From Ramlibacter sp. (lineage in GTDB: Bacteria; Pseudomonadota; Gammaproteobacteria; Burkholderiales; Burkholderiaceae_C), in contig JAAYCV010000018.1 in the NCBI GenBank assembly GCA_012729605.1, forward strand, positions 1-44,591: 44,591 bases of DNA, in the 5' to 3' direction. The translations under genes were made by a program, and so were the position numbers. The notes beneath the pieces are model-generated. The model was not told where the DNA came from. It worked only from the letters and a program-made list of their open reading frames with translations, and ran no database searches. Shown here one piece after another: positions 945 to 44,591 of the stretch. Position 1 is the stretch's first letter, and every line of letters starts with the position of its first letter.

Positions 945-2051
945 ATGCCCCAGTTGTTCGATGCCTACACGCTGTCTGGCCTGCCGCTGCGCAACCGTAT
1001 CGTCATGGCCCCGATGACCCGTGCGCGCAACCCGGATGCCGTGCCGAATGACCTGACCGCGCTCTATTACCGCCAGCGCGCCAGTGCCGGCCTGATCGTG
1101 AGCGAAGGCGTGCCGGTATCGGAAATGGCCAATGGCAACCTGTACGTGCCGGGCCTGTACACGCCCGAACAGCAGGAGGGCTGGAGCCATGTCACGCAAG
1201 CCGTGCATGAGGAGGGCGGCGCCATCTTCGCCCAGCTCTGGCATGTGGGCCGCGCCTCGCACCAGAACCTGCTGCACGGCCGCAAGCCGCACAGCTCCAC
1301 CGCCCGCACGGCCGACACCAAGGTGTTTGCCTATGACCTGAATGGCAAGCCCGGTTTTGTGCAGGCCACCGAGCCGCATGCGATGACGACCGACGAGGTG
1401 CGCGAGACCGCCTTCGATTTCGGCAAGGCCGCTGGCCGCGCTATCCGCGCCGGTTTTGACGGCGTGGAAATCCACGGCGCCAACGGCTATCTGCTGGAGC
1501 AGTTCATGAACCCGCTGGTGAATGACCGCACCGACCAGTACGGCGCCCAGACCATGGACGATCGCCTGCGCTTCGTGCTGGAAGTGGTGGACAACGTGGT
1601 GGCTGCCACGGCACCGGGCAAGGTCGGCGTGCGCCTGTCACCCTGGGGCCGCTTCAATGACATGCCCGATTACGCCCAGCTCGAGGAGACTTACCTGCAG
1701 CTGATCCGCAAGCTGGACGAGCGCGAGCTGGCCTATGTGCACCTGATGGACCAAAGCAATGGCCAGGGCCGTCCCGATGCCGAGGGCCAGAACGAAGCCT
1801 TTCTGCGCAAGGTGCGCGAGGCCTTCCCGCGCGGCGCCATCATCGTGGCTGGTGCCATGACGCTGGAGGTGGGCAACCATTTGTTGCAGCAGGGGCTGGT
1901 CGATTTGGTAGGCTTTGGTCAGCCCTTCATCCCCAACCCGGATCTGGTGCAGCGCCTGCAGCATGGCTGGCCGCTGGAGCAGCCGGATCGCCGCACCTAT
2001 TACGGTGGCGGCCGCGAAGGCTATACCGATTACCCCAATTACCAGGGCTGA
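945..2051 (+). CDS. nemA: Old yellow enzyme family alkene reductase (NemA-like)
   Basis: A 368-residue FMN-dependent TIM-barrel oxidoreductase, full length for the family. It starts PQLFDAYTLSGLPLRNRIVM and has the FMN-binding MAPMTRAR segment at the first strand. H177-G-A-N180, in HGANGYLLEQF, is the His/Asn pair that holds the carbonyl or nitro oxygen of the substrate, followed by the family hallmark NDRTDQYG. Members reduce activated C=C bonds, N-ethylmaleimide, nitrate esters or nitroaromatics with NADPH in the cytosol; the real substrate here cannot be told. CAGGAGATTTTC supports the ATG at 945. No TetR-type NemR regulator is adjacent. The next gene begins 40 bp downstream on the same strand and could be co-transcribed. 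Confidence 0.9.
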   Translation: MPQLFDAYTLSGLPLRNRIVMAPMTRARNPDAVPNDLTALYYRQRASAGLIVSEGVPVSEMANGNLYVPGLYTPEQQEGWSHVTQAVHEEGGAIFAQLWHVGRASHQNLLHGRKPHSSTARTADTKVFAYDLNGKPGFVQATEPHAMTTDEVRETAFDFGKAAGRAIRAGFDGVEIHGANGYLLEQFMNPLVNDRTDQYGAQTMDDRLRFVLEVVDNVVAATAPGKVGVRLSPWGRFNDMPDYAQLEETYLQLIRKLDERELAYVHLMDQSNGQGRPDAEGQNEAFLRKVREAFPRGAIIVAGAMTLEVGNHLLQQGLVDLVGFGQPFIPNPDLVQRLQHGWPLEQPDRRTYYGGGREGYTDYPNYQG

Positions 2052-41726: not shown

Positions 41727-44198
41727 TTAGCCGCAGCTCCCCATATGCCCGCACTGTGTGCAGTAATCGCAGCCATCCTTGCGGATCATGGCGTGCGCGC
41801 CGCATTCGGGACACTTTTTGCCGGCCATCACCGGCAGCAGGTTCTGCTGCTGGCTCATCACGTCAGGCGTGTGGTTGGGCGAGGGCGCATCGATGTCCTG
41901 CAGCGGCAGTTCCATCTGGCTGCGCTCGGCGATCAGGTTCTGCAGCGCGTAGGCAATTGCGGCCACTTCGGAATCGTGCCAGCGCGGCACCAGTGTGCCG
42001 TCGGCCTTGGCGTAGGTGCCCAGACGCACCGGGCCGCGGTCCCAGCTGACCTTGCGCAGGTCGTCCAGCGCACGGTCCAGGAAGCCGCCACGCGCGGCCA
42101 GCGACAGCGAACGCATGGTGGCGGTAATCCATTGCTGCGATTCGCTACTCTGGCCCACCGGCATGAAGAATTCGATGGCGCGCTCGACATTGCGGCCGTC
42201 TTCGCCTTCGATCGGCATGAAGGAGACGATCAGGTACAGGCGCTGCTTGCCTTCCTGTGTCCAGTATTCGATCTTCTCGGCCACGGCGTTCAGCGCGCCC
42301 TTGGGGCGGCTTTCGATCACCACGCGCATCGGATCGACCGGTTCGGCGGCGGGAGCGGCCGGCTTCGGCTCTTCCTTCTTGGCCGGCGTGGCTTCCAGCA
42401 CGGCACCCAGGATGCTGTTCGGGCGGTAGGTGGCCAGGCCCTTCAGGCCGGCGCGCCAGGCGTGGTGGTACAGGTCCTTGAAGTCCTCGTAAGGGTAGTC
42501 GGCCGGGATGTTGACCGTCTTGGAGATCGAGGTATCGATGAAGGGTTGCACCGCCTGCATCATGCCGACGTGATCGGCGGCAGACATTTCCAGCGCCGAG
42601 ACGAAGTACTCGGGCAGCTTGGCGTCCTGGCCATGCAGCGCGTGGTACAGGCGGTAGGCGTGGTCTTCCACCACGTACTCGCTGGTGGAGCCGTCTGCTT
42701 CGCGCTTGCGGCGTGTGTAGGTCCAGGAGAAGGCCGGTTCGATGCCGTTGGAGGCGTTGTCGGCAAAGGCCAGGCTGACCGTGCCGGTAGGCGCGATTGA
42801 TAGCAGGTGGCTGTTGCGCAGGCCGTGCTTCTTGATGTCGGCCTTGATGTCGGCCGGCAGGCGGCTGGCAAAGCTGTCGTTGCCCAGGTAGGCCTTGGCG
42901 TCAAACTTGGGGAAGGCGCCTTTTTCCTTGGCCAGCTCCACGGACGCGCGGTAGGCGGCATTGCGCATGCGCTCGCCGATCTGGGCGGCCATCTGGCGGC
43001 CCTCCTCGCGGTCATAGCGCAGGCACAGCATGCTCAGGGCGTTGCCCAGGCCGGTAAAGCCGACGCCGATACGGCGCTTGGCGGCGCTTTCCTCGCGCTG
43101 CTGCTCCAGCGGCCAGAAGGTCACGTCGAGCACGTTGTCGAGCGCGCGCACCTGGATCGCCACGGATTTCTCGAAAGCGTCAAAGTCGAAGCTGGCGGTG
43201 CCGCCTACATTGAAGGGATGGCGCACGAAGCGCGTCAGGATCACCGGACCCAGGTCGCAGCAGCCGTAGCTCGGCAGCGGCTGTTCGCCGCAGGGGTTGG
43301 TCGCCGCGATCTCTTCGCAGTAGTTCAGGTTGTTGTCGCGGTTGATCTGGTCGATGAACAGGATGCCCGGTTCGGCAAAGTCGTAGGCCGACTGCATGAT
43401 GGTGTTCCACAGCTCACGCGCCGGCGTCTTGCGGTAGACCCAGTTGCCGTCATCGCGCTGGTAGGCGCCGGCGTCCATCACCTTCTTGCCGGGCTTGGCC
43501 TTGTGCACCAGTTCCCAGTCGGTGCCGTCGGTCACGGCCTGCATGAAGCCGTCGCTCACGCCGACCGAGACGTTGAAGTTGTTCCAGCGGCCCGGCGTGC
43601 GCTTGGCCGTGATAAATTCCAGCACGTCCGGATGGTCGATGCGCAGCACGCCCATCTGGGCGCCACGGCGTGCGCCGGCGCTCTCTACCGTGGAGCAGCT
43701 CTGGTCAAAGACGTTGATGTAGCTGCACGGGCCGGAGGCGATGCTGGCCGTGCCCTTGACCTGGGCACCCTTGGGGCGGATGCGGGAGAAGTCGTAACCG
43801 ACGCCACCGCCACGGCGCATGGTTTCGGCCGCTTCGCGCAGGGCCTCGTAGATACCGGGGAAGCCTTCGTCGTCAAAACCCTGGATGCAGTCGCCCACCG
43901 GCTGCACAAAGCAGTTGATCAGCGTGGCCTGGATGTCGGTGCCGGCAGCGCTCATGATGCGGCCTGCGCCGATCGCGCCGGCGCGCAGGTTCTCCAGGAA
44001 CTTCTGCTCCCACTCGGCACGCAGTTCGGGCTTTTCGGCACCGGCCAGCGCGCGGGCAACGCGGGCGTAGATCTCGTCGGCGGAGGATTCACCGGCCTTG
44101 CAGTATTTCTCCTGGATCACGTCCTTGCTGATCGGTTGTTCGGGCAGTTCGAGGGTAGACAGGGGGTGGCGGGCAGGAGTATCCATGGCAGACATCAC
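41727..44198 (-). CDS. nrdJ: Adenosylcobalamin-dependent ribonucleoside-diphosphate reductase NrdJ
   Basis: An 823-residue class II ribonucleotide reductase, which uses coenzyme B12 to make deoxynucleotides with or without oxygen. AETMRRGGGVGYDFSRIRPK and GPCSYINVFDQSCSTVESAG belong to the barrel. NLNYCEEIAATNPCGEQPL contains the catalytic C-G-E. SIAPTGTVSLAFADNASNG is another conserved loop. The C-terminus has the CPECG...CDYCTQCG zinc-ribbon pattern that helps re-reduction. The start could be any of the ATGs at 44198, 44195 or 44186. No clear ribosome-binding site is seen. A structured leader lies 30 nt upstream. Aerobic class I genes (nrdAB) are not in view. Confidence 0.95.
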   Translation of the reverse strand: MMSAMDTPARHPLSTLELPEQPISKDVIQEKYCKAGESSADEIYARVARALAGAEKPELRAEWEQKFLENLRAGAIGAGRIMSAAGTDIQATLINCFVQPVGDCIQGFDDEGFPGIYEALREAAETMRRGGGVGYDFSRIRPKGAQVKGTASIASGPCSYINVFDQSCSTVESAGARRGAQMGVLRIDHPDVLEFITAKRTPGRWNNFNVSVGVSDGFMQAVTDGTDWELVHKAKPGKKVMDAGAYQRDDGNWVYRKTPARELWNTIMQSAYDFAEPGILFIDQINRDNNLNYCEEIAATNPCGEQPLPSYGCCDLGPVILTRFVRHPFNVGGTASFDFDAFEKSVAIQVRALDNVLDVTFWPLEQQREESAAKRRIGVGFTGLGNALSMLCLRYDREEGRQMAAQIGERMRNAAYRASVELAKEKGAFPKFDAKAYLGNDSFASRLPADIKADIKKHGLRNSHLLSIAPTGTVSLAFADNASNGIEPAFSWTYTRRKREADGSTSEYVVEDHAYRLYHALHGQDAKLPEYFVSALEMSAADHVGMMQAVQPFIDTSISKTVNIPADYPYEDFKDLYHHAWRAGLKGLATYRPNSILGAVLEATPAKKEEPKPAAPAAEPVDPMRVVIESRPKGALNAVAEKIEYWTQEGKQRLYLIVSFMPIEGEDGRNVERAIEFFMPVGQSSESQQWITATMRSLSLAARGGFLDRALDDLRKVSWDRGPVRLGTYAKADGTLVPRWHDSEVAAIAYALQNLIAERSQMELPLQDIDAPSPNHTPDVMSQQQNLLPVMAGKKCPECGAHAMIRKDGCDYCTQCGHMGSCG

Positions 44199-44228
44199 AT
44201 CAGTTCAATAGGGGGCGTACAAGGGGAA

Positions 44229-44316
44229 ACGGCATGCTGTGCCGGGGTGCAGGGGCTGTGTTCTTGTAGCCTCTGGTGGGCTTTTTTGCTTGTGCCCTGC
44301 AGGGGCAGCATGCCGT
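44229..44316 (-). promoter_or_regulatory. Structured leader RNA candidate upstream of nrdJ
   Basis: In the minus-strand transcript, ACGGCATGCTG (44316-44306) pairs perfectly with CAGCATGCCGT (44239-44229). Inside it TGCAGGG (44301-44295) pairs with CCCTGCA (44254-44248). The enclosed loop is A-rich and contains a small hairpin around AGCC/GGCT. The B12-box pattern of cobalamin riboswitches is not visible. The structure ends about 30 nt before the start codon. On the plus strand the same region reads GGGCTTTTTT, a weak terminator-like motif. Confidence 0.5.
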
Positions 44317-44370
44317 GTCGATCAGTCCAGTTTAGCTGGTTTGGGGGGAGTTGGCCGATCGGGGAAATGC

Positions 44371-44382
44371 CTGATAAATCAG
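44371..44382 (-). repeat. Palindrome in the nrdJ upstream region
   Basis: CTGAT-AA-ATCAG is a perfect 12-bp palindrome, extended on both sides by ATGC and CAT with one bulged base. It lies upstream of the leader hairpin and could be an operator. It does not match the NrdR box as I know it. Confidence 0.35.
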
Positions 44383-44447
44383 CATTCTGCCGCAAGCCCT
44401 TGAGCCGCTTGCGTTTCGCGACCGGGCGTGCGGGAAAGTGTATTGTA

Positions 44448-44591
44448 TCAGGCTGTTACAGCCGGGCGCTCGCCGCTGACGAGCCAGTTGAGCAGGTCTT
44501 CGACCGGGCGGATCTGGTTGCCGAAAGGCAACACGCCGGCACCGCGGAAGAACAGGCCCTTGTTGACTTCGCCGCGCTGGGCATCGGCCAG
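44448..44591 (-). CDS. NAD(P)H-dependent flavin oxidoreductase, nitronate monooxygenase-like (partial, C-terminus)
   Basis: The minus-strand frame is open from the right edge to the stop at 44450-44448 and reads LADAQRGEVNKGLFFRG, then GVLPFGNQIRPVEDLLNWL, then SGERPAVTA. This is the usual end of FMN-dependent 2-nitropropane dioxygenase/nitronate monooxygenase family proteins, which oxidise alkyl nitronates or reduce enoyl substrates. The catalytic part lies outside the window. It is upstream of nrdJ on the same strand with 249 bp between, so co-transcription is uncertain. Confidence 0.7.
   Translation of the reverse strand: MADAQRGEVNKGLFFRGAGVLPFGNQIRPVEDLLNWLVSGERPAVTA

Follow-up and report, generated by a model that had tools for sequence, protein, structure and literature searches.

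Stem-loops at the 5' end that stabilise an mRNA are known from leaders of the ompA type, and Weinberg and colleagues reportedly named a structured-RNA candidate the 'nrdJ motif' in 2017. Structured leaders that provide standby sites are described in an excerpt of PMC3936740. Among ribonucleotide reductase genes, the class Ia operon nrdABS of Streptomyces has been reported to carry a cobalamin riboswitch (Borovok 2006, as given in excerpts of PMC5962746 and PMC4991794); the excerpt of PMC5962746 states that some B12-dependent reductases are under cobalamin riboswitches, and the work cited there names the class Ia operon in its title. The nrdJ promoter of Pseudomonas aeruginosa is under NrdR control according to an excerpt of PMC4409342.

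Here we analysed a stretch of 44,591 nt (the window) in which nrdJ is preceded by a hairpin, of which no description was found in the titles and abstract openings searched. Four of the genomes compared below carry the hairpin, all of them Brachymonas (Burkholderiales): G000 is the window's genome, G002 its sister, and G003 and G005 are the other two.

The hairpin ahead of nrdJ in the window

The hairpin occupies positions 44229-44316 of the minus strand. Its outer stem is a perfect one of 11 bp, in which 44316-44306 (ACGGCATGCTG) pairs with 44239-44229 (CAGCATGCCGT), exactly where a previous interpretation made from the DNA letters alone (the sequence-only reading) had placed it. The second stem, given there as 7 bp, is present and was predicted in the minimum free energy (MFE) structure as 8 pairs around one bulged base (44301-44294 with 44256-44248), with two more C-G pairs below it, and the loop described as A-rich also contains a small apical hairpin (44282-44268). 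The features of the locus are as follows.

44229-44316, minus strand: structured leader element, whole hairpin (MFE -40, z -4.97; covariance model R1 matches 44224-44316)
44306-44316, minus strand: outer stem, 5' arm, ACGGCATGCTG (CGGC/GCCG becomes CGAC/GTCG in G003 and G005)
44229-44239, minus strand: outer stem, 3' arm, CAGCATGCCGT (from pairing and the alignment of four leaders)
44294-44301, minus strand: inner stem, 5' arm, TGCAGGGC (compensatory change from GC to AU in G003 and G005)
44248-44256, minus strand: inner stem, 3' arm, GCCCCTGCA, with one bulge (from the fold and covariation counts)
44268-44282, minus strand: apical hairpin AGCC-CACCAGA-GGCT (from alignment A1 of four leaders)
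44328-44336, minus strand: GCTAAACTG, in which TAAACT is a candidate -10, the 5' end then lying near 44321 (invariant in four leaders)
44187-44228, minus strand: pyrimidine-rich spacer of 42 nt without visible Shine-Dalgarno sequence (28 of 42 positions C or T; mean unpaired probability 0.69)
41727-44198, minus strand: nrdJ, adenosylcobalamin-dependent ribonucleotide reductase (TIGR02504 match)

The hairpin exists at these positions and exceeds chance. A 106-nt stretch folded with an MFE of -40 kcal/mol (z -4.97), a value reached by none of 200 shuffles; within a 291-nt context the hairpin stayed in both the MFE and the centroid structure, yet z was only -1.86 (7 of 200 shuffles as good). The nrdJ open frame begins with a GTG at 44198, its conserved start is the ATG at 44186-44184, and it matches the NrdJ profile TIGR02504 with 583.5 bits (cut-off 399.95), the nearest named relatives of its product being those of Brachymonas denitrificans and of Brachymonas MAGs. 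The distance of about 30 nt between hairpin and gene given previously holds for the first possible ATG (44195), while the conserved ATG (44186) lies 42 nt from the 3' end of the hairpin, and the lack of an obvious ribosome-binding site noted there agrees with ours, no Shine-Dalgarno sequence being visible by eye ahead of nrdJ.

None of the 4227 families of Rfam 15 reached its gathering score anywhere in the window, in line with the hairpin having been left without a family; on 44180-44480, with E values up to 10, the search gave just two matches, one to a human lncRNA region and one to a viral frameshift element, both taken as chance. Over 16 related loci only two tRNAs rose above the gathering score, and the G003 and G005 leaders produced sub-gathering matches only, mostly in the upstream terminator region.

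Conservation and distribution of the fold

The leaders of G000, G002, G003 and G005 were aligned (alignment A1; four sequences from only two lineages), and the resulting consensus holds both stems as well as the apical hairpin. Compensatory changes were found in 5 of the 20 sense-strand pairs, so that covariation, whose absence in relatives the sequence-only reading had named as evidence against itself, is present among these four sequences. In G003 and G005 one pair is U.G on the sense strand. Except at n, all four leaders have the same apical loop, CnCCAGA, and the pair closing the apical hairpin is AU in two, GC in one and A.C in one. The paired fraction of cells (93.8%, against 88.2% in shuffles) and the covariation score (0.267, where shuffles averaged 0.151) were reached by none of 500 shuffles, double-change pairs were weakly above them (5 against 3.2; 55 of 500) and further standard pair types were not (6 against 6.4; 391 of 500), all these controls leaning in favour of the consensus because it was derived from the same four sequences. 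With slid partners, 31-42% of cells were paired. When the window's own MFE structure (26 pairs) was laid on G003, 20 of 25 gap-free pairs were kept and 5 of 6 double changes still paired; on G005, 20 of 25 pairs were kept and 5 of 7 double changes still paired. The reverse start, from the G003 MFE structure, performed more poorly, with 13 of 21 pairs kept in the window.

Paired columns changed less than unpaired ones in all six pairwise comparisons, with p < 0.05 in four of them. The differing columns, paired against unpaired, were 1/40 and 11/54 for the window and G002 (p 0.012), 4/40 and 15/54 for G003 and G005 (p 0.04), 9/40 and 25/52 for the window and G003 (p 0.016), 10/40 and 30/51 for G002 and G003 (p 0.0015), 13/40 and 26/50 for G002 and G005 (p 0.087), and 12/40 and 21/51 for the window and G005 (p 0.38). 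Folding of 95-99 nt placed an outer stem, the inner stem and the small apical hairpin in the MFE structure of all four leaders. In whole-leader folds (134-136 nt) of G003 and G005 the inner stem and apical hairpin stay and the outer stem is lost, GGACG at the assumed 5' end pairing with CGTCC adjoining the ATG.

As for the strand, z was better for the sense than for the antisense fold in all four leaders: -4.96 against -3.73 in the window, -4.77 against -2.81 in G002, -2.11 against -0.60 in G003, where the sense fold is weak, and -0.72 against +0.85 in G005, where it is not significant. Three sense A.C mismatches become G.U wobbles on the plus strand, on which 98.6% of cells pair. On these predicted folds we lean towards the sense strand as the functional one. 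The case for a structured leader restricted to this lineage is good without being final, since it comes from four sequences in two lineages and one fold is non-significant alone; we take the hairpin to be a real structure of the nrdJ leader, lineage-restricted and probably transcribed.

A covariance model of the hairpin (R1) was searched in 299 genomes of the family and, separately, in nrdJ leaders from 35 sources (the window plus 34 loci; loci L048-L098 were left out). Strong matches (E 7e-18 to 7e-22) were obtained in 4 of the 299 genomes, one in each, all of them Brachymonas and every one directly upstream of nrdJ. The nrdJ leaders of the other five Brachymonas genomes (G001, G004, G006, G007 and G008) gave no match to R1; nrdJ itself is present in all nine genomes of the genus, as fragments only in G007 and partially in G008. 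Being single-copy and genus-confined in this 299-genome sample, the element would appear to be neither a dispersed repeat nor a widespread riboswitch, and its distribution argues against both. Three weak matches in other genera (E 0.02-0.06) lie antisense within a coding frame, presumably that of the amino-acid permease gene livM, and were taken as chance.

At the DNA level, comparison of the 301-nt leader region with 60 genomes (its own included) gave a full-length match of 88% in G002. A 27-bp match in G031 corresponds to the part of the leader upstream of the hairpin and was dismissed as chance, as it falls inside a coding frame that we take to be the flagellar export gene flhA. The nrdJ leaders of G003 and G005 are homologous to that of the window but diverged, and the regions upstream of nrdJ in the other five Brachymonas genomes differ, carry NrdR-box-like sites and align poorly with one another, no shared structure being seen in them by eye. 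The motif CCAGAGG was also sought in other nrdJ leaders and discarded: it has 6 occurrences in 80 leaders, counting both strands, one of them in B. denitrificans, and no common architecture was seen. As a separate observation by eye, at least six nrdJ leaders from Ottowia and other Burkholderiales (L023, L024, L029, L033, L034 and L087) have a block TGCAAGAAT or TGCAAAAAT, which in several of the six is followed by a small GC-rich hairpin ahead of the start codon.

B12 control and NrdR at the reductase genes

The cobalamin riboswitch model RF00174 found no match at nrdJ, either in the window at gathering score or on 44180-44480 with E values up to 10, in line with the sequence-only reading, which saw no B12 box. 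The model works in the window's genome, where it has four matches elsewhere. One of these copies ends 212 nt upstream of the ATG of nrdA, which encodes the large subunit of the B12-independent class I enzyme (locus L118 on contig C71 of G000: riboswitch 1501-1704, minus strand; ATG 1289), and the same arrangement recurs in G002 (L119), with scores of 114.3 bits and 109.5 bits, respectively. Upstream there is a frame that presumably encodes a feoB-like ferrous iron transporter. With a cobalamin riboswitch ahead of nrdA and no RF00174 match at nrdJ, predicted B12 control in the window's genome is on the alternative enzyme nrdA, not on nrdJ. Extending the RF00174 search over 36 relatives added little. 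The premise of the sequence-only reading that cobalamin riboswitches often control B12-dependent reductases, which the excerpt of PMC5962746 states for some of them, is thus reversed in this genome, in which the riboswitch precedes the gene of the B12-independent enzyme.

In G006 a cobalamin riboswitch (L117:1501-1699, contig C99) lies ahead of an nrdD-like frame, which we take to be the anaerobic nrdD, and two NrdR-box-like sites with 3 mismatches each were seen near it, at C99:20688-20734.

Six of the 9 Brachymonas genomes gave a match to NrdR (TIGR00244); G000, G002 and G006 gave none. In G003 nrdR stands between glyA and a neighbouring gene (L138:1486-1974), whereas in G000 and G002 (L145 and L144) nrdR is missing from between these two; judged by this gene order, the repressor gene has been lost in the window's species and in its sister. 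In G006, which is 83% complete, glyA has no match either, so the absence of nrdR there proves nothing. No NrdR box within 3 mismatches was found upstream of nrdJ in the four hairpin genomes, of which G003 and G005 do possess nrdR; with no box, and nrdR not found in G000 and G002, the nrdJ of the window does not appear as a member of an NrdR regulon. NrdR-box-like sites upstream of nrdJ were found in G008, G006, G004, G001 and G007, with 0, 1, 2, 3 and 3 mismatches, respectively, although three-mismatch sites are common by chance (a reversed control pattern gave 16-34 per genome) and those of G001 and G007 rest on position. Given that the hairpin occurs both with and without nrdR, its presence is, on this gene content, not explained by nrdR loss alone. 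G005 has two further box-like sites and G003 has one at about 1.3 kb ahead of the matched segment of nrdA, a placement that would fit an nrdA promoter.

Possible roles of the nrdJ leader

A strong intrinsic terminator (15 and 13 pairs) separates the upstream gene from the leader in G003 and G005, so that nrdJ probably has a promoter of its own downstream of it. In the corresponding region of the window and G002 (44391-44413 in the window, minus strand) a stem is possible by eye but lacks a T-run, and a terminator scan of this region on the minus strand found none in either, so that transcription of the upstream gene could run on into nrdJ in these two genomes. In the aligned part ahead of the hairpin, no run of bases shared by all four leaders is longer than GCTAAACTG. 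Our guess is that its TAAACT serves as a -10; with a start seven bases on, near 44321, the leader would measure 135, 135, 135 and 134 nt in the window, G002, G003 and G005. No good -35 for it was seen by eye, and a promoter scan returned no promoter-like pair on either strand of the four leaders. Two candidates were discarded, namely a second hairpin around GCTAAACTG, whose arms of 5-6 bp do not clearly exceed those of shuffled sequences (equalled in 95 to 486 of 2000), and, by eye, a leader peptide, since the ATG frame running through the hairpin in the window meets single-base gaps between window and G002 and its ATG is absent in G003 and G005.

As the best explanation of the observed structure, conservation and position we propose, tentatively and with somewhat less than even confidence, that the nrdJ leader of this one group of Brachymonas species combines a 5'-terminal, mRNA-protecting hairpin with a pyrimidine-rich S1 landing site for translation without a Shine-Dalgarno sequence. 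Transcription would start just upstream of the hairpin, near 44321, which would put the two-tier stem-loop at the extreme 5' end of the nrdJ mRNA; there it would most likely shield the message from 5'-end-dependent decay, and the spacer, pyrimidine-rich and without a Shine-Dalgarno sequence, would be where the ribosome lands through S1. The conserved apical loop CnCCAGA might be read by a protein. The spacer is predicted to be mostly unpaired in all four leaders (0.62-0.75; window 0.69, G002 0.62, G003 0.75, G005 0.66) and equally or slightly more open when the hairpin is removed (0.63-0.83; 0.71, 0.63, 0.83 and 0.75, respectively), so the hairpin itself does not open the landing site. Around the ATG the unpaired probabilities with and without the hairpin were near equal (0.49/0.48, 0.57/0.57, 0.59/0.63 and 0.60/0.62 in the same order), suggesting that the hairpin has no clear effect on access to the start in either direction.

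The conserved blocks could instead be promoter elements and regulator sites acting as DNA, with transcription starting inside the hairpin and no full RNA hairpin formed. The resemblance of GCTAAACTG to a -10 speaks for this, as does CATAAT, a possible internal promoter that follows CCAGAGGC inside the element in G003 and G005; this position reads CAAGAA in the window and G002, the promoter scan was blank, the inverted repeat around GCTAAACTG does not clearly exceed shuffles, and the compensatory changes together with the better sense fold suggest RNA, so we regard this reading as unlikely. Quite improbable, in our view, is a small antisense RNA that crosses the leader on the plus strand and ends at a U-run past the apical hairpin. 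The plus-strand AGCCTCTGGTGGGCT followed by TTTTT did score as terminator-like in the window, and the three pairs that are standard, as G.U, on the plus strand only would suit such an RNA; against it, the site occurs in one of four leaders (the window's count of 1 being near the shuffle mean of 0.6), the antisense fold is the less significant in all four, the pairs of the window's antisense MFE structure are kept at 18 and 21 of 32 compared with 20 and 20 of 25 for the sense, and the promoter scan was blank on both strands. We give similarly little credence to a Rho-dependent attenuator, in which the spacer would load Rho and poor translation would let transcription halt before nrdJ. The spacers of all four leaders do have more C than G (14/8, 16/6, 19/4 and 16/4 in the window, G002, G003 and G005), but they measure no more than about 40 nt, and in the window the skew is weak. 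A chance hairpin without function would agree with the GC-rich leader, the non-significant G005 fold, the five Brachymonas genomes whose nrdJ leaders gave no match and the lack of any strong match in other genera; its fixed position, the compensatory changes and the slower change of paired columns make it improbable.

A riboswitch of an undescribed class, responding to cobalamin, a dNTP or something else, would account for a three-tier conserved architecture and a conserved apical loop ahead of a metabolic gene without an Rfam match, and the alternative pairing beside the ATG that replaces the outer stem in the whole-leader folds of G003 and G005 could be a switch. Nevertheless, unpaired columns, those of the internal loop included, differ even between the sister genomes G000 and G002 (11/54), and no strictly conserved aptamer core was found, CnCCAGA being the sole conserved loop. 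Moreover, no terminator was found between the hairpin and the gene in the four leaders, the openness of the start region shifts by 0.04 at most without the hairpin, strong R1 matches are confined to one genus, and B12 control already appears to sit on nrdA. We therefore consider a riboswitch very improbable. The sequence-only reading is supported in that nrdJ has a structured element ahead of it that matches no Rfam family and whose pairs show compensatory changes across four Brachymonas genomes. Its suggestion that this leader senses cobalamin, dNTPs or another ligand is not supported: the internal loop varies, the predicted openness of the start hardly changes, and no terminator was found between hairpin and gene. 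More remote still is a new RNA that replaces NrdR at nrdJ, sensing nucleotide state or adenosylcobalamin or binding a protein via CnCCAGA, and working opposite to the nrdA riboswitch so that DNA-precursor synthesis is divided between the two reductases. If the leader were regulatory, it would illustrate the control of a class II reductase that has escaped NrdR, in bacteria that have lost this repressor and whose class I enzyme is behind a B12 riboswitch.

Compared with the NrdR-controlled nrdJ of P. aeruginosa (excerpt of PMC4409342), the target gene is the same and five other Brachymonas genomes have box-like sites, whereas the four hairpin genomes have no NrdR box at nrdJ and nrdR was not found in two of them. 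With the cobalamin riboswitch of Streptomyces nrdABS (excerpt of PMC4991794) the case has in common a reductase gene and a genome that also encodes a B12-dependent enzyme, but RF00174 is not found at the nrdJ of the window and one copy stands ahead of nrdA instead. The proposed protecting hairpin with its landing site differs from ompA-type and standby-site leaders (excerpt of PMC3936740) in having no visible Shine-Dalgarno sequence and in being known here from sequence and predicted folds; what it shares with them is a long stem-loop close to where the transcript presumably begins, with a mostly unpaired stretch behind it that reaches the start codon.
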